64,000 nt of DNA. Source: Tenacibaculum sp. Bg11-29 (GTDB lineage Bacteria; Bacteroidota; Bacteroidia; Flavobacteriales; Flavobacteriaceae). Positions 37,894-63,652 of this stretch are shown piece by piece (position 1 is the stretch's first letter; the number at the start of each line of letters is the position of its first letter). A program made the position numbers and the translations under genes. The stretch spans positions 1,115,001-1,179,000 of the forward strand of contig NZ_PJBB01000003.1 of the NCBI RefSeq assembly GCF_002836595.1, written 5' to 3'. The notes under the pieces are model-generated. The model had not been told where the DNA came from. It searched no databases and saw only the letters and a list, made by a program, of their open reading frames with translations.

Positions 37894-37914
37894 TATTAAA
37901 TTTTAAATGAATAC

Positions 37915-39282
37915 TTAATCAAAAGCCCCTGTTTTTAATTTCTGAAAGTAAACTGTAGCTGCTTTTTTTACTTTCGGTGCTAAAATTAAAGTAGAAAGAA
38001 CGGTTGGTATTGCCATTAAAGCATAAGCACTATCCATTAAATTAATAACAAAATCTAATTTAATAATAGACGCTACAATAATTACTATAATATAAAAATG
38101 ATTGTAATACTTACCAGCTTTAGAGTTGGTTAAGTAACTTAAACAACTATAACCATAAAAAGAATAAGTAAATAAGGTTGAGAAGGCAAAAATTAATACG
38201 CAAACAGTTAAAATGATGCTTCCTAAGTGGTAAGGTAGTACCGAATCGAAAGCAGCTAAAGTCATTGTAATACCATTACCATCAAAATCTTTCCAGATTC
38301 CTGAAACTAATATAGCTAATGCGGTTAATGTACATACTAACAATGTATCTATTGCAGGGCCTAACATAGCAACTAACCCTTCTCTAATAGGTTCGTCAGT
38401 TTTTGCAGTACCATGCATCATCGGTGCAGTTCCTAAACCAGCTTCATTTGAAAAAGCAGCACGTTTTACACCTGTAATTATTAAGGCACCTAATGCTCCT
38501 CCTAATACTGATTTACCTGAAAAAGCATCTGTAAATATTAAGGAGATTATTGAAGGAACATCTTCAATCTTTAAAAGTAGAATTATTAAAACGGTTACTA
38601 AATATACAATTACCATTACGGGTACTAATTTACCAGCTACCTTTCCTATTCGTTGAATTCCTCCAAAAATTACTGTAGAAACAATAAAAGCAATACATAT
38701 TCCGATTAATAATTTTGCACTAAATTCATTTGATTGATTTACTTTAAAAACATCAATTATTGTTTGTGTTAATTGGTTTGCTTGAAAAGCAGGTAAAGTT
38801 CCTACCAAACCAGCTGTTGCAAAAAACACAGCTAATGGTTTCCATTTTTTACCTAAACCTTCTGTAATTACATACATTGGCCCTCCTTTAGCATTTCCTT
38901 CATCATCTTTACCTCTGTACATTATAGCTAAACTACAGGTAAAAAACTTAGTTGCCATACCAACAAAGGCACTTACCCACATCCAAAAAATGGCTCCAGG
39001 ACCTCCGGTGGCTATTGCAATGGCAACACCACTTATGTTTCCCATTCCTACGGTTGCTGCAATGGCAGATGATAAAGCTTCATAATGAGATAAATCTCCT
39101 GGTGAATCATGTTTGTCGTATTTACCTCTTAAAACAGCAATAGCATGTCCCATGTATCTAAAAGGAACTAATCCTGAATAAATAAAGAGGCATAATCCGC
39201 CACCAATTAATAATATTAATAATGGAATTCCCCATATCCATGAAGAAAAACTGGCGACTGTATTTTGAATATCAATAAACAT
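37915..39282 (-). CDS. Alanine/glycine:cation symporter (AGCS family)
   Basis: A 455-residue transporter with about 11 membrane segments that imports small neutral amino acids with sodium or protons. The AGCS marks are GDLSHYEALSSAIAATVGMGNISGVAIAI near residues 60-90, GGPGAIFWMWVSAFVGMATKF, KGGPMYVI, and RAAFSNEAGLGTAPMMHG around 275. Length is normal. It is a single gene, with terminators on both sides. Confidence 0.95.
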   Translation of the reverse strand: MFIDIQNTVASFSSWIWGIPLLILLIGGGLCLFIYSGLVPFRYMGHAIAVLRGKYDKHDSPGDLSHYEALSSAIAATVGMGNISGVAIAIATGGPGAIFWMWVSAFVGMATKFFTCSLAIMYRGKDDEGNAKGGPMYVITEGLGKKWKPLAVFFATAGLVGTLPAFQANQLTQTIIDVFKVNQSNEFSAKLLIGICIAFIVSTVIFGGIQRIGKVAGKLVPVMVIVYLVTVLIILLLKIEDVPSIISLIFTDAFSGKSVLGGALGALIITGVKRAAFSNEAGLGTAPMMHGTAKTDEPIREGLVAMLGPAIDTLLVCTLTALAILVSGIWKDFDGNGITMTLAAFDSVLPYHLGSIILTVCVLIFAFSTLFTYSFYGYSCLSYLTNSKAGKYYNHFYIIVIIVASIIKLDFVINLMDSAYALMAIPTVLSTLILAPKVKKAATVYFQKLKTGAFD

Positions 39283-51596: not shown

Positions 51597-52958
51597 ATGG
51601 CTAAAACCAAGACTACTTTTTTCTGTCAAAACTGCGGGGCACAACATGCACAATGGAGTGGGCAATGTAATACATGTAAAGAATGGAATACTATTGTTGA
51701 AGAAGTAATTCAGAAAGAAGAAAAAAGAACTTGGAAAACTCCAGAAAATGTTAAAAAAAGAGTTTCAAAACCTTTAAAAGTACAGGATATTCTATTAAAC
51801 CCTGAAGAACGTGTTGAAACAAAAAATAACGAATTAGATACCGTCTTAGGAGGTGGTATTGTAAAAGGAGCTGTCGTTTTATTAGGAGGAGAGCCAGGAA
51901 TAGGTAAATCAACATTATTACTACAAATTGCTTTAAATATTCCCCAAAAAGTACTGTATGTTTCAGGGGAAGAAAGTCAGTCGCAAATTAAAATGCGTGC
52001 CGAACGCTTAGAGGCAAGTAATTCGAATTGTTTGATTCTTACCGAAACAAATACGCAGCAAATTTTTAAACATATAGAAGAAGTTCAGCCAGATGTTTTG
52101 GTCATTGACTCTATTCAAACATTACATACAAATTCTATTGAAGCATCTCCAGGGAGTGTTTCTCAAATACGTGAAACTTCAGCTGAATTAATAAAATTTG
52201 CGAAAGAAACAGGAACTCCCGTTTTATTAATCGGGCATATTAATAAAGATGGACATATTGCAGGGCCAAAGATTTTAGAACACATGGTTGATGTGGTTTT
52301 ACAATTTGAAGGAGACAGAAACCATGCTTATAGAATTTTACGTTCGCAGAAAAACAGATTTGGATCTACTGCTGAATTAGGAATTTACGAAATGCTATCA
52401 AGTGGTTTACGAGAAGTATCGAATCCGTCAGAAATATTAATTTCTAAAAAAGATGCAGATTTAAGCGGAACCGCAATTGCATCAACTTTAGAAGGCGTTC
52501 GTCCGTTAATGATAGAAATTCAAGCGTTGGTAAGTACCGCTGTGTATGGTACTCCACAACGATCTACGACTGGGTATAACCTAAAAAGGTTACACATGAT
52601 TTTGGCAGTTTTAGAAAAAAGAGCAGGTTTTAAATTAGGAGCAAAAGATGTGTTTTTAAATGTTACGGGTGGAATTCATGTTGATGACCCAGCGATTGAC
52701 CTGGCTGTTGTTGCTGCAATTTTATCATCAAATCAAGATATGGCAATAAACCCAAATGTTTGTTTTGCTGCCGAAGTTGGTTTGGCTGGTGAAATACGAC
52801 CAGTTTCTAAAATAGATCAACGTATTCTAGAGGCTGAAAAATTAGGGTATAAAACCTTGGTGGCTTCAAAGTATAATAAGATATCTTCGAAAAATCACAC
52901 TATTAAATTACTTTTAGTTGGTAAAATTGAAGAAGCTTTTGCTACGCTATTTGCCTAG
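51597..52958 (+). CDS. radA: DNA repair protein RadA
   Basis: A 453-residue RecA-like recombination helicase that helps branch migration. The N-terminal zinc finger uses C10, C13, C24 and C27. Walker A is GEPGIGKST (98-106), the RadA-specific SQKNRFGS motif is intact, and a Lon-like C-terminal domain follows (GGIHVDDPAIDLAVVAA, GEIRPVSKIDQRI). Length is normal. The last 166 bp are duplicated at 55047-55212 with mostly silent differences, and a more decayed third 3' end lies at 55240-55359. The present radA end may therefore have been acquired with the DNA that now follows it. A TAACTTTG -7-like box lies at 51568-51575. Confidence 0.97.
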   Translation: MAKTKTTFFCQNCGAQHAQWSGQCNTCKEWNTIVEEVIQKEEKRTWKTPENVKKRVSKPLKVQDILLNPEERVETKNNELDTVLGGGIVKGAVVLLGGEPGIGKSTLLLQIALNIPQKVLYVSGEESQSQIKMRAERLEASNSNCLILTETNTQQIFKHIEEVQPDVLVIDSIQTLHTNSIEASPGSVSQIRETSAELIKFAKETGTPVLLIGHINKDGHIAGPKILEHMVDVVLQFEGDRNHAYRILRSQKNRFGSTAELGIYEMLSSGLREVSNPSEILISKKDADLSGTAIASTLEGVRPLMIEIQALVSTAVYGTPQRSTTGYNLKRLHMILAVLEKRAGFKLGAKDVFLNVTGGIHVDDPAIDLAVVAAILSSNQDMAINPNVCFAAEVGLAGEIRPVSKIDQRILEAEKLGYKTLVASKYNKISSKNHTIKLLLVGKIEEAFATLFA

Positions 52959-53418
52959 ATTTTATATTTTAGTTAATAAAAGTTTGTGATTATTTCCATT
53001 TTCCGACTTTGTAAATAAGGTGAGTTCGATGTAAGAAAAAGGTGTCAGTTCGAGTGAAATTCTGAAAGAATTTAGTATCGAGAACAGTATTTTTCGTTTT
53101 TAAATTATATAATTTATAAGGAAAGCCACTCGAAATAACAATTTATAAACGGAGATTTTTTATATAGAACTTACGTTAAATAGGTAATGTTTTTTTGATT
53201 AAATATGAATCATTATAATAATCCTAATTTAGCGGCATTCTCTTTCTACTTAGGTGCAGTCAAATTTAATAAAACTATTTTATCCTGAAACTTGGGTGCT
53301 ATGTTTTAATTACCTCTAGTGTTTATCCACATCTGTTGTAACGCTATAATCACTAGAGGTGTTTAATTTATCTATTTAACGTTTTATTGTTTTCTTTTTT
53401 GAATTTTGGTGCGGGAAA
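52959..53418. other. 460-bp spacer after radA with two structured elements
   Basis: No credible gene is visible. The segment 53045-53096 holds cagttcgag ... tcgagaac around a perfect hairpin aaattct/agaattt; the outer arms pair through a possible tandem G-A mismatch. Similar repeats seem common in Flavobacteriaceae, from memory. A second, 10-bp perfect inverted repeat (acctctagtg at 53312-53321 with cactagaggt at 53351-53360) has a 29-nt loop. An ORF of 27 codons at 53206 is too short to support. Confidence 0.45.
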
Positions 53419-54051
53419 TTAACCACAGTTAAATTCACTATATAATTCATGTCTTTCTGAATTTTCATCAGAATATAAAAAGTAGGCTAAAACACGGAAA
53501 ATAAAACCTCCTTCATTATATGAGTTTTCATCCTGCCCTGAGTATTCATCAGAGTCTTCTAAAGCACTACCATGACTAAAGAAACATATTTTCGGTTCTT
53601 TTAAAGAGTTTAAGCTTTCGGTATCTATTACCACACAGTTTTGACCTAAATCACAAAATTCTAAAAAACGATCGGTGTTTTCTTCGTCTTCTGTAAAATG
53701 TTCATACATATAAGACGGGTAGTGTAGTCTTTCTAAATCATATTCCTCATCAACAAGTAGTAACCTACTATGTCGTGATTCTATAACATCTTTTGTATCT
53801 GGTCTTTCGGAAGGCGCAAATAGGGCGCGTACTATTTTTGCTTCTCCAGTCGAGCTTTCATTTAGTAATTTAATAGATAAGGAACCTTTTTCCCAAGTAT
53901 TATCCATAATTTCTTCTTCATTCTCTAATATTCTATAGGAAACTATTTTTTCTAAAATATGGTTGAATGTTTCTTCACATGTTTCTGTTAAAAGCCATGT
54001 TTTAAAATGATTTTTTAAAAATTCAACTTCCTGTGTACTTAATTTATTCAT
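53419..54051 (-). CDS. Acidic protein of unknown function, intact copy
   Basis: I do not recognise this 210-residue protein. It is soluble and strongly acidic, with no signal or membrane segment. It begins MNKLSTQEVEFLKNHFKTWL; residues about 135-190 hold GQNCVVIDTESLNSLKEPKI, then HGSALEDSDEYSGQDENSY and GGFIFRVLAYFLYSDE. A second, broken copy with the same order of motifs lies next to it on the same strand. Small acidic single-domain proteins that occur as diverged tandem copies are typical of immunity proteins (for example SUKH-type), but no toxin is visible, so this is a guess. The gene lies in DNA inserted between radA and duplicated radA 3' ends. Confidence 0.65.
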   Translation of the reverse strand: MNKLSTQEVEFLKNHFKTWLLTETCEETFNHILEKIVSYRILENEEEIMDNTWEKGSLSIKLLNESSTGEAKIVRALFAPSERPDTKDVIESRHSRLLLVDEEYDLERLHYPSYMYEHFTEDEENTDRFLEFCDLGQNCVVIDTESLNSLKEPKICFFSHGSALEDSDEYSGQDENSYNEGGFIFRVLAYFLYSDENSERHELYSEFNCG

Positions 54052-54307
54052 GTAATTGTTTTATTTGTAACTCAATCTATTATATGATAGTTTTGAGTTA
54101 TGTTTATTGGGTTTTATATTTATTTTAAAAAAAGGGTGGTTGGTTATTTGGAGTACGAAGAAAACAAATGATGTTTTATTTAGCTCAATTCGAAACCGAA
54201 TAGATTATAATTTTGGTGAGATGTTTTTTTGAACTCGATTTGTTTTTATAAACAAATGTTTTTTAAACTAAACATTCTGGTTTAAATTTAGTGATAGTAG
54301 ATTTATT

Positions 54308-54920
54308 TTATCCCCAGCCATAATCGGTATCGTTAAAAATAAACTCACTCATCAATCTTATAAAAGCCCTCCTGTTCCGAAAGAAATTTCATTTTGTTCT
54401 GGAAAATCATCATTATCTCCAACTGTTAAACCATGGTCAGTTATTATAATTATGGGTTCTCCTAAAGCATTTTTTCGTTGATGATCCCAAATTATCCAAT
54501 TTTGACCAGTATTACAAAATCCTTGATGTATTTCTTCATCACCATCAAGCTCCTCTAACATAAACTCAGACGAAGGAGCTCCTTCGTCTGAACCATAAAA
54601 ATCTATGTAATCGGGTACGTCATCTTCAAATAATATGGATTGTGCATTTGAACTACCGTCTTATAAGATTTTGGTATTGTGAAGGAATTGTTATGAAAAT
54701 CTCCTTTGTAAGATGCCCCAAAAGTTATAGCGACTTTGTCTTCATCTTCATTTTTAAAATAGATCTTTAGGTTATCTTCATACTTAATTTCAACAATTTT
54801 AGTAGATATTTTATTTAATATTTTAATGCATGAAGGGGTTAATGCCCATGGTTTAAAATAAGCTATAAAAGCATTGGTTAATTCTAATTCCTCTAGCGTA
54901 GATAATTTTTTTAGTAACAT
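54308..54920 (-). pseudogene. Frameshifted paralogue of the acidic protein
   Basis: Three minus-strand frames must be joined to rebuild it. Frame one starts MLLKKLSTLEELELTNAF and runs to about 54665. Frame two continues as SILFEDDVPDYIDFYGSDEG ... GQNWIIWDHQRKNALGEPII ... DFPEQNEISFGTGG to about 54370. Frame three ends RLMSEFIFNDTDYGWG at 54308. The joined product (about 200 residues) aligns with the intact neighbour: KLST.E near the start, LT..C, GQNxxIxD, N.L.EP.I, HG and GG in the same order. Two frameshifts leave it inactive unless they are sequencing errors. Identity to the neighbour is low, so the duplication is old or the two copies came in separately. Confidence 0.75.
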
Positions 54921-54960
54921 ATTTATTCTACATATAATTTTGTCTCCAACAAATATCATA

Positions 54961-55046
54961 TTTTCTAGATGACTTTTTTACCCTGAATTCAGTGAAAAAT
55001 AAATTGTTGGTTTCTTATAAGGATTTGGGGTAGTTTATTTGGGATT
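54961..55046. other. Short spacer before the first radA remnant
   Basis: No gene or structure is visible. Homology to radA starts abruptly at 55047. Confidence 0.4.
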
Positions 55047-55212
55047 AAATACGACCAGTTTCTAAAATCGATCAACGTATTCTGGAGGCTGAAAAATTAG
55101 GGTATAAAACCTTGGTGGCTTCAAAGTATAATAAGATATCTTCAAAAAATCACACTATTAAATTGCTCTTAGTTGGTGAAATTGAAGAAATTTTTGCGAC
55201 TTTGTTTGCCTA
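55047..55212 (+). pseudogene. Duplicate of the radA 3' end, 166 bp
   Basis: It aligns without gaps to 52792-52957, the last 55 codons of radA, with 12 differences that I count (about 93% identity). Only two change an amino acid in the shared frame before the last codons (K to E and A to I); most are silent. The stop codon is altered and the frame runs a few codons further. No start codon precedes it; a TAA lies directly upstream in frame. The silent-rich pattern means this is the end of a functional radA allele from a diverged lineage, not a copy that decayed in place. Confidence 0.93.
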
Positions 55213-55239
55213 TTTTTTTTGTTTTTGGTAGTTCTAAAT

Positions 55240-55359
55240 ATATTTTTAGCAATAGAAAATTTAGGATATATAATTTTGAAACATAACAAGCAAAATTCTT
55301 CTATAAAGCTAATTTTACTTAGTGAAATAGAAGAAGCCTTTGCTATATTATTTACTTAG
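55240..55359 (+). pseudogene. Second, strongly diverged radA 3' end remnant
   Basis: In one frame it reads IFLAIENLGYIILKHNK, then SSIKLILLSEIEEAFAILFT and a stop. The radA C-terminus reads RILEAEKLGYKTL ... IKLLLVGKIEEAFATLFA and stop. The match covers about 40 codons with roughly half the residues kept. The remnant's stop codon overlaps the stop of the convergent doxX-like gene, as if this was once the radA end next to doxX. Confidence 0.8.
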
Positions 55360-55774
55360 AGTTTATTAATGTACTATTTGATAAAGCGTATTTACCAGCT
55401 CCTGATAAGTAAATTACAATGGCACCAAATAGATATAGACCTTGTAGTTCAATTGCCCAACCTCCAAACTTATTTAAAGCAAAAATATCTCCAGAATGTG
55501 CCATTAAAATAGCGATTAACATGTTAAAAGCTAGAACAAAACTTGCTAACCTTGTTTTCCAACCTATAATTATAAGTATTGGAGCAATTATTTCTCCTAT
55601 AAAAACAGAGTATGCAATAAATTCTGGAATTCCGATACTACTCAGTAAGCTTTTAATGAATGAATAATTGGTGGTTAAATTTGCAATTCCGTGAAATAGA
55701 ATAAGTCCGCCGATACTGACTCTTTGTAATAGCAGCGCAGTCTCTTTTTTATTAATTTTTTTTAAGATATTCAT
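55352..55774 (-). CDS. DoxX-family membrane protein
   Basis: A 140-residue protein with four membrane segments, starting LLLQRVSIGGLILFHGIANL and continuing IGEIIAPILIIIGWKTRLASFVLAFNMLIAI. DoxX proteins are quinone- or redox-linked membrane proteins, often in stress-responsive operons. A Crp/Fnr-type regulator lies 110 bp upstream on the same strand and may control it. Its last codons overlap the remnant of a radA 3' end on the other strand. Confidence 0.88.
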   Translation of the reverse strand: MNILKKINKKETALLLQRVSIGGLILFHGIANLTTNYSFIKSLLSSIGIPEFIAYSVFIGEIIAPILIIIGWKTRLASFVLAFNMLIAILMAHSGDIFALNKFGGWAIELQGLYLFGAIVIYLSGAGKYALSNSTLINSK

Positions 55775-62683: not shown

Positions 62684-63652
62684 TTAGCAACATCCACCAC
62701 CATCATAATGATAGGTAGATTCAGAAAAGAAAATATCATCTCTACCAAGCGCTTTTAAAGCAGCCGCAGTTTTATCACAAATAGCCAAAGGCTGATTTTT
62801 TAACAAAGTATGCCCTTCACCATCATCAAAATAATCTTCATCACCATAATAAATAGCAGCTTTACCTGTAAATATACAAGGACCATCTGCCGGCATAGGA
62901 TCTTTAATTGCTGCAACTTCAATTGATTCTATGTAAATCAATTCATCAGTAGGGTAATTCTTAGGGTCTAAAATCCTGTAAGGCTTTCTAGCTCTAATTT
63001 CTATAGTTCCGAAACCAGCATCAGTCAAAGCTTTTACATAATCAGCAATCGATAAACTTCCGCTTAAACACAAAGCACGTAAACGTTCGTCGTTACGTAA
63101 TTCATCATTCATTGGTTGTTCACAAGTAGGATCGCTCATTACTAATTTACCGTGAGGTTTTAAGACGCGATACATCTCAGCAATTGCTTTCTTTAAATCA
63201 TCAGATTTAAAAATATTAAATAAACAGTTTTGAGCGGCTACATCAATCGAGTTGTCTTCAACAGGCAACGCCATTGCATCACCTTTACGTAAATCAACAA
63301 AATCGCTTTTAAACCAATCATTTTGTTCTTCAGCAACTTTAAAGTTTTTGCGAGATGCTTCTAGCATTTCATCAACTACATCTAAACCTATTACACCACT
63401 TTTATTTCTGTTGAAATAAGCGAATTGTAATAATTCCATTCCACCACCAACACCTACGTATAACATTTTAGGATTGTTGGTTAAATCACGTGCATGTACT
63501 GTAGAACCACAACCGTAGTTCATTTCTTGCATGATTTTCGGAATTTTTAAACCTGGTAATTCCCAAATAGGATTCGTGGTACAACATAAGCCAACATCTG
63601 GTGTTAAAGCTGCTTCTTTGTATACGTTATGTGTAGTTTCTAAATAACTCAT
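62684..63652 (-). CDS. arsM: Arsenite methyltransferase, arsenosugar-biosynthesis type
   Basis: A 322-residue AdoMet-dependent methyltransferase of the ArsM form linked to arsenosugar synthesis. The N-terminus has the arsenic-binding cysteine pair in VGLCCTTNP and another cysteine in MNYGCGSTVH. The AdoMet site is YVGVGGGMELLQFA with IGLDVVDEML, followed by AAQNCLFNIF and DPTCEQPM, and the protein ends DGGGCC. It methylates arsenite-thiol complexes. The gene just upstream on the same strand encodes a DoxX-type membrane protein, the usual neighbour; the radical-SAM ArsS would be expected further right, beyond the window. A terminator follows. Confidence 0.9.
   Translation of the reverse strand: MSYLETTHNVYKEAALTPDVGLCCTTNPIWELPGLKIPKIMQEMNYGCGSTVHARDLTNNPKMLYVGVGGGMELLQFAYFNRNKSGVIGLDVVDEMLEASRKNFKVAEEQNDWFKSDFVDLRKGDAMALPVEDNSIDVAAQNCLFNIFKSDDLKKAIAEMYRVLKPHGKLVMSDPTCEQPMNDELRNDERLRALCLSGSLSIADYVKALTDAGFGTIEIRARKPYRILDPKNYPTDELIYIESIEVAAIKDPMPADGPCIFTGKAAIYYGDEDYFDDGEGHTLLKNQPLAICDKTAAALKALGRDDIFFSESTYHYDGGGCC

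Follow-up and report, generated by a model that had tools for sequence, protein, structure and literature searches.

The stretch of DNA from the marine bacterium Tenacibaculum sp. Bg11-29 analysed here (64,000 nt; hereafter the window) carries on its forward strand an intact radA gene (51597..52958) encoding 453 amino acids with RadA-type domains in a Pfam scan. The gene was found in 142 of 146 genomes of the genus. The working 3' end of the radA ORF (T1, 52792-52958) recurs downstream on the same strand as a stranded end that has lost its stop codon (T2, 55047..55213), identified by repeat search, codon comparison and a tail tree. The repeat search of the window recorded a direct repeat (52792-52975 / 55047-55230) with 90% identity over 184 nt, ruling out a chance origin. 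A preliminary description had reported that the last 166 bp of radA recur with 12 mostly silent differences, and codon-by-codon comparison of 52792-52957 with 55047-55212 bore this out: nine of the 12 are silent, and the other three fall in two codons, changing K to E and A to I. A 13th difference converts the stop codon TAG to TAT. The same description placed a third radA end, about half identical in protein, against doxX. This older, decayed end (T3, 55240..55359, forward strand) is common to the window and T. ovolyticum, and is 52% identical over 42 residues (E 7e-7) to the 54-aa tail used as query. The final bases of T3 run into the end of a reverse-strand gene of the doxX family (55352..55774; PF07681, E 1.4e-16; 92% to T. 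ovolyticum), the first gene in the flank common to both genomes, which starts at approximately 55223. The window contains no tRNA gene, and a tRNA-linked island was therefore rejected.

Two paralogous genes for acidic proteins separate radA from T2, as first described; both are on the reverse strand, and the second is broken. The ORF of cargo 1 (53419..54051) encodes an intact 210-aa acidic protein of a rare, unclassified family. Cargo 2 (54358..54959), recovered by tblastn and as ORF pieces at 54603-54959 and 54358-54561, shares 80% DNA identity over 703 nt with a relative of 204 aa that is intact and located at another site of this genome (G000:C3:3995861-3996406). Five database proteins, cargo 1 itself included, were retrieved at E 1e-3, and relatives occur in only four of the 397 Flavobacteriaceae genomes searched, the window's own included, which makes the earlier label "foreign-looking" a fair one. 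Pfam and PADLOC gave no match for cargo 1. A guess by eye that the cargo is a SUKH-type immunity protein was dropped, as neither these searches nor PDB at E 0.001 returned a match; the structure model has a mean pLDDT of 61.6. A scan for known RNAs gave none above the gathering score, either within the window stretch or in front of the AbiD gene of a second genome, G018, described below.

The radA locus was then read in 148 of 166 genomes of the genus, with G045, G076, G081, G085 and G113 (radA tail unmatched, or matched only by a fragment) and 13 others excluded. Copies of a genome's own radA tail of at least 60 nt, counted after removal of matches inside other ORFs (30 downstream) and of those more than 6 kb away, were present in four of the 148; T. 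ovolyticum (G096) is a fifth genome through the shared T3. The same filter found a tail copy for none of the approximately 2,347 other ORFs in these stretches. Two cases of copied gene 5' ends in the same stretches count against the explanation preferred below. Counted back from the last base of the stop codon, the left edge of the copy lies at 207 nt in G131, 167 nt in the window genome and 126 nt in G018, and the whole inserts measure approximately 1.1, 2.1 and 1.1 kb, respectively. Passengers elsewhere include AbiD in G018 and pieces of a type III methyltransferase at locus L257. The gene after radA varies far more than the gene before it: among the loci compared (33 of 80 named loci entered, 31 counted), the largest cluster takes in 17 of 31 downstream neighbours and 28 of 31 upstream ones. 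A 30-nt tail match in G048 (E 1e-4) was taken as chance. Separately, G128 shows two tail matches yet has no nucleotide copy, and radA of G164 ends with one extra codon.

Two of these inserts could be compared with an empty site in a sister species. Base 1249 after the radA stop in G018 corresponds to base 3 in G163, and base 1266 in G131 to base 1 in G066. The native flank restarts directly past the tail copy in both G018 and G131, and the match between inner and outer tails ends at the radA stop codon. These empty junctions, together with the different cargo carried by relatives, support the earlier proposal that insertions recurred at the 3' end of radA. Most of the G131 insert consists of sequence that other species carry immediately after radA: its bases 8-936 align at 80% with bases 2-918 behind radA in G164, and its gene directly follows radA in G119, G068 and G133 and is second in G132. 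No donor of the G018 insert or of the window's cargo was found among the genomes compared. Several observations in this comparison count against the preferred explanation: the G131 cargo is present in G164, where no tail copy accompanies it, and absent from G066 and G144, so that transfer may have run either way; none of the other genomes compared has the window's cargo adjoining radA; and the cargo relatives in two other genera sit among other genes. Of 34 insert/empty pairs listed, G018 and G131 alone keep a tail copy, implying either that the scar fades fast or that most insertions behind radA arise otherwise.

The tail sequences bear on where T2 came from. In the tail tree, T2 is nearest the window's own tail (path 0.17), followed by that of T. 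ovolyticum (0.35), and in each of the three cases the stranded tail clusters with the resident gene. A distant lineage is thus not the source of T2, and the "elsewhere" of the preliminary description would be a very close lineage. That description had argued from the silent-rich divergence that each copy evolved within a working radA. The silent excess itself holds (nine of 13 differences including the stop codon, P 0.0014 against 26% expected), but the inference is weaker than it appears, because a parsimony reading of the codon table leaves approximately six of ten polarised T2-branch changes silent (P 0.024). At L257, five of seven tail differences read as silent. The two tails of G131 differ by seven substitutions, two of them silent, as in a plain local duplicate, which counts against the preferred explanation. 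Those of G018 differ at two of 126 positions, the outer tail carrying the alleles of G150 and G162 and the inner one partly those of G008.

The best explanation is that rounds of DNA exchange placed new genes behind radA without an integrase, and the stacked tails are probably scars of homology-anchored insertion. An incoming fragment would comprise the radA 3' end of a close relative and the gene or genes behind it, and would pair with the resident radA through their common coding sequence. The other end would be joined without real homology, either to a point inside the resident radA, as in homology-facilitated illegitimate recombination, or back onto the start of the fragment itself, giving a circle that could enter by a single crossover. 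Both routes would yield one product: the 3' end of the resident gene would remain whole (T1), the gene that comes next in the donor would become cargo, and a radA tail starting at a random point (T2) would be left ahead of the native flank, then decay. Since a later round would push the old tail further outward, T3 would be older than T2. Homology is confined to one side, that of the radA coding sequence; at the opposite joint, two bases are shared in G018 and none in the window genome before the repeat. An insert adjoining radA in a candidate donor was seen for G131. We infer the entry route, the order of joining, the sequence of events in the window genome and a donor for its cargo. Both routes have been described in E. 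coli, one combining a homologous and an illegitimate end and the other circularisation with a single crossover (PMC3240628). The ComEC and DprA families are present, and are widespread, occurring in 10 and 11 of 14 control genomes.

The arrangement had originally been likened to prophage e14, which replaces the 3' end of icd in E. coli with an equivalent tail and leaves the old tail on the far side. The topology at radA is the same, with a new tail restoring the gene, the old one beyond the insert (G018/G163 and G131/G066) and stacking, and the radA hotspot is common to several genomes. Tandem accretion of e14-like or ICE-like elements that attach within radA and restore its tail, their integrase since lost, is nevertheless distinctly improbable. 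The crossover point is not fixed, the three genomes having three different left edges (207, 167 and 126 nt), and the inserts are small and, unlike e14, lack phage genes. Integrase-like ORFs were not detected in the window insert and occur in two of 148 downstream stretches (mostly approximately 18 kb), 9 and 11 kb from radA and not adjacent to it; the ten queries all came from the window genome, so that a remote integrase could escape this search. An e14-like integrase event is not supported. Nor did the records searched contain a close flavobacterial radA tail as a candidate attP: seven phage records all fell below 60% identity, those of seven plasmid records covering most of the query were 42-53% identical, and one viral contig reached 40%.

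Two further alternatives were considered. Cargo could have entered at radA with duplication of 126-207 nt of the resident copy and no incoming radA tail. A direct target repeat of that length does flank the inserted genes, the grouping of all stranded tails with the resident radA, the five non-silent substitutions in G131 and the near-identity of the G018 tails fit, and two passengers (AbiD and the methyltransferase) are defence genes. We consider this unlikely, as both fresh cases end at the stop codon, where a random right edge would not, the differences in the window and L257 are silent-rich, and the G131 insert is radA-flanking DNA of other species. Alternatively, recombination between the direct repeats could free a circle of tail and cargo that integrates again and again into radA in other cells through a single crossover. 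The 126-207-nt repeats and the alleles of different relatives in the two G018 tails agree with such cassettes, and an E. coli island without its own recombinase, bounded by 144-148 bp imperfect repeats, does excise (PMC5426353). However, among the genomes read no two radA lineages share a cassette with an identical left edge, and the G018 allele signal comprises two sites only, making this very unlikely.

Homology-anchored insertion at radA resembles several known systems in part. Insertion with long target duplication was reportedly described for Helicobacter pylori restriction-modification genes by Nobusato et al. in 2000. In later accounts (PMC1643837, PMC3154945), as at radA, a gene, often one for restriction-modification, sits between the two copies of a long direct repeat derived from the target gene; at radA, in contrast, the inner tail may represent another allele, and one insert is a piece of the radA flank of another species. 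The 13-kb microcin island H47 of E. coli likewise lacks its own recombinase and has imperfect direct repeats (144 and 148 bp); excision was detected there (PMC5426353), whereas mobility at radA would follow from comparison alone. A further likeness is to a toxin-delivery cluster with one conserved anchor, an illegitimate joint opposite and no integrase found, in which the new module comes first and the displaced 3' end and older genes are shifted back. There the anchor lies within the cluster and the 3' end is that of an effector, while radA is a housekeeping repair gene that needs to stay whole, and its passengers are unrelated.

More speculatively, and with considerable doubt, the radA 3' end might be a permanent docking site of Flavobacteriaceae that needs no integrase, where units of radA tail and passenger gene circulate between strains by host recombination alone, restoring radA, favouring defence-type passengers and leaving a tail stack that records the order of arrival. 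Our findings suggest that a housekeeping gene may, through no more than a fragment of its sequence, give unrelated genes, including some for phage defence, a handle for entering a chromosome without an integrase or transposase. The stranded tails would then form an ordered record of insertions, and by scanning for them at other core genes one could measure how often genes are gained without an integrase.

The genome of Tenacibaculum sp. Bg11-29 (G000, 4.54 Mb; the window is C3:1115001-1179000) carries an intact radA at 51597-52958 of the window, with its closest relative among the 146 genomes of the genus searched in G096 (97%), which appears to be T. ovolyticum. Earlier claims of a repeat of the last 166 bp of the gene, a third radA tail abutting doxX and two paralogous genes in between were all confirmed. 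T2 (55047-55212) is a copy of the final 166 nt of radA with 12 differences, 9 of them silent, and a 13th change beyond these destroys its stop codon; T3, which ends at 55359 against doxX, is a decayed third tail with 52% identity over 42 residues. Between radA and these tails, cargo 1 (53419-54051) is intact and cargo 2 is its broken paralogue. The cargo family is rare: a database of 5.8 billion yielded 5 proteins at E 1e-3, the window's own included, and members occur in 4 of the 397 genomes searched in Flavobacteriaceae; further copies lie elsewhere in the same genome. Cargo 1 matched no Pfam or PADLOC model, and its low-confidence structure model yielded no fold. The stretch 53016-53180 is a dispersed repeat of ~150 nt, with similar copies at G000:C3:3273892-3274050 (79%) and 37901-38065 (76%); its motif, GTCAGTTCGAGT, is present at 15 of 281 loci, and lies within ~200 nt behind radA in four genomes (L046, L073, L075, L078).

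To determine how common tail copies are, radA and its downstream flank were read in 148 of 166 Tenacibaculum-group genomes of the genus (at least 6 kb of flank in 132 of them) and searched with each genome's own final 300 nt of radA. Copies were found in the window's genome (T2 and T3), G018, G131, G156 and T. ovolyticum, whose copy corresponds to T3; a 30-nt match in G048 appears fortuitous. When whole genomes were searched with the 54-residue tail, more than one match was obtained in only 5 of 166, namely Bg11-29, G018, G131, G156 and G128. The two matches in G128 (L175) are weak and the alignment of its radA stops at residue 434 of 453, probably through an altered C-terminus or a frameshift. 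As a control, the same nucleotide test was applied to all 2,495 ORFs of 100 aa or more along these stretches. Only radA, in four genomes, had a 3'-end copy of at least 60 nt within 6 kb downstream, on the same strand and outside other ORFs; two other genes gave shorter copies of 33 and 23 nt. Omitting Bg11-29, which was selected because of this feature, leaves 3 of 147 radA against 0 of ~2,350 other ORFs, a result with a chance of ~2e-4. Two gene 5' ends were copied upstream of their own genes (137 nt, 99%, in G140, L129; 154 nt, 82%, in G131, L070), so radA is not the only gene with scars of this type. Outside the genus, one of the 78 named loci (of 80) with enough flank carries a tail copy. 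This locus, L257, belongs to a MAG assigned to Lentimicrobium whose radA is flavobacterial; on its possibly chimeric contig, Schlafen AlbA_2, RecG-C and type III methyltransferase pieces lie between radA and the copy.

The preliminary description had proposed comparison with empty junctions in relatives, and these were found for two genomes. In G018, a single gene, AbiD (Pfam Abi_2, 4e-54; PADLOC AbiD, 1e-73), separates radA from a 126-nt tail. Behind that tail, the sequence from base 1249 after radA onwards aligns with G163 starting 3 bases past its radA stop, the two radA bodies differing by 1.4%. In G131, a cupredoxin gene (PF00127) and a 207-nt tail follow radA, and the flank from base 1266 onwards aligns with G066 starting at the first base past its stop. 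Because the flanks align to these empty junctions, the outer tail and flank are resident in both genomes, and the end of the inner tail was inserted together with the cargo in front of the outer tail. In each of the two genomes, the inner and outer tails match as far as the stop codon, not past it. From its start to the end of the stop, the outer tail measures 207 nt in G131, 167 nt in the window and 126 nt in G018; in front of the repeat, two bases are shared in G018 and none in the window.

The e14-like integrase event suggested earlier was not borne out. Ten query ORFs, taken from the places where Bg11-29 itself has integrase matches, were searched against all ORFs of at least 60 aa in the 148 flanks and detected only two integrase-like ORFs, 9 and 11 kb away; no close radA tail was present in the phage records, plasmid records or viral contigs searched; and the varying left edges of the tails disfavour a single integrase.

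The silent-rich divergence of the copies had been taken to mean that they evolved in radA genes elsewhere. In the window, 9 of 13 differences are silent (P 0.0014), as are ~6 of 10 changes on the T2 branch (P 0.024) and, by our reading of the codons, 5 of 7 in L257 and 2 of 2 in G018, as against 2 of 7 in G131. Yet T2 groups with the resident radA: 13 of 167 sites separate it from T1 and 23 from T. ovolyticum, the nearest other genome, and its path in the tail tree is 0.17 to T1, with T. ovolyticum at 0.35. The outer tails of G018 and G131 are likewise nearest to their own genomes, in a tree with support below 80 on 78 of 146 inner branches. T1 differs from T. ovolyticum at 17 of 167 sites and the radA body at 110 of 1,195; this agreement argues that T1 is not foreign. 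The tails therefore derive from very close, sometimes identical, lineages.

With moderate confidence, we favour homology-anchored recombination at radA with one illegitimate joint; the main rival, considerably less probable, is insertion with a long target duplication, as reported for H. pylori (PMC1643837, PMC3154945). The conserved coding sequence of radA would serve as anchor, and selection would retain events that leave radA complete. The illegitimate joint could form on the chromosome within the cell (homology-facilitated illegitimate recombination), or the fragment could close into a circle and enter by a single crossover; both fates are described in E. coli (PMC3240628). Competence families are present, though common. 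Among published cases, the immunity arrays found in Vibrio T6SS clusters come closest (PMC5361080). A literature search for attachment or insertion at radA, judged by titles and abstract beginnings, gave nothing on point, which does not prove the phenomenon unpublished; radA mentions looked up in two of the papers were unrelated to either.

An incoming fragment of this kind is predicted to consist of a radA end and the next gene. As predicted, bases 8-936 of the G131 insert (~1,063 bases) have an 80% match in G164, in bases 2-918 immediately after radA; the cupredoxin gene is the direct neighbour of radA in G119, G068 and G133, and in G132 it comes second. The insert is thus not random DNA. 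In G164, cupredoxin is followed by an IS-like stretch (named by eye) and then thioredoxin, with no tail copy, and in G066 and G144 thioredoxin follows radA; insertion is the probable direction of change in G131. For the cargo of the window and for AbiD of G018, no radA-adjoining donor was found.

The order T1, cargo, T2, T3, doxX implies at least two putative insertion rounds in the window, in line with the earlier proposal, and would place T3 before the split from T. ovolyticum and T2 after it. Different cargo in relatives, also anticipated, is seen with AbiD, cupredoxin and T. ovolyticum, where a response regulator and a histidine kinase (both by eye) and a 250-aa protein with no Pfam match lie between radA and T3: the same slot in a sister, with different cargo. 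A decayed tail in G156, behind a penicillin-binding-protein-like gene adjoining radA, hints that this gene also arrived as a passenger. Single passenger genes directly behind radA are also seen in L062 and L063 (G083, G108), encoding 239 aa, unmatched in Pfam and PADLOC, and 222 aa, with a weak HEPN_Cthe2314 match just below cut-off. A methyltransferase gene lies 9.7 kb behind radA in the window (62684-63652) and 0.5-6 kb behind it in G147, G137, G127, G017, G022, G083, G148 and G156; judged from these distances, the interval in the window seems to have been enlarged by successive insertions.

The 3' side of radA is far more variable than the 5' side. Among 31 named loci, the nearest upstream gene belongs to one cluster in 28, whereas the nearest downstream genes form 13 clusters, the largest with 17. 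Across 186 loci (148 from the genus, plus 38 named loci from elsewhere), the genes next behind radA make up 57 clusters, of which 37 have a single member. The commonest in the genus survey (L082-L175 and others; 77 of 186 loci) is a minus-strand gene of ~248 aa, uroporphyrinogen-III synthase-like by eye, and inserts often lie between it and radA. For 369 genome pairs with radA bodies differing by less than 12%, 40 were alignable from the stop, 77 had an insert in one genome, 191 began to align past 40 bases in both, and 61 shared nothing within 6 kb. Only G018 and G131 kept a tail copy among the 34 insert/empty pairs listed, so tail duplication would be one of several ways of entry behind radA, or a scar that fades.
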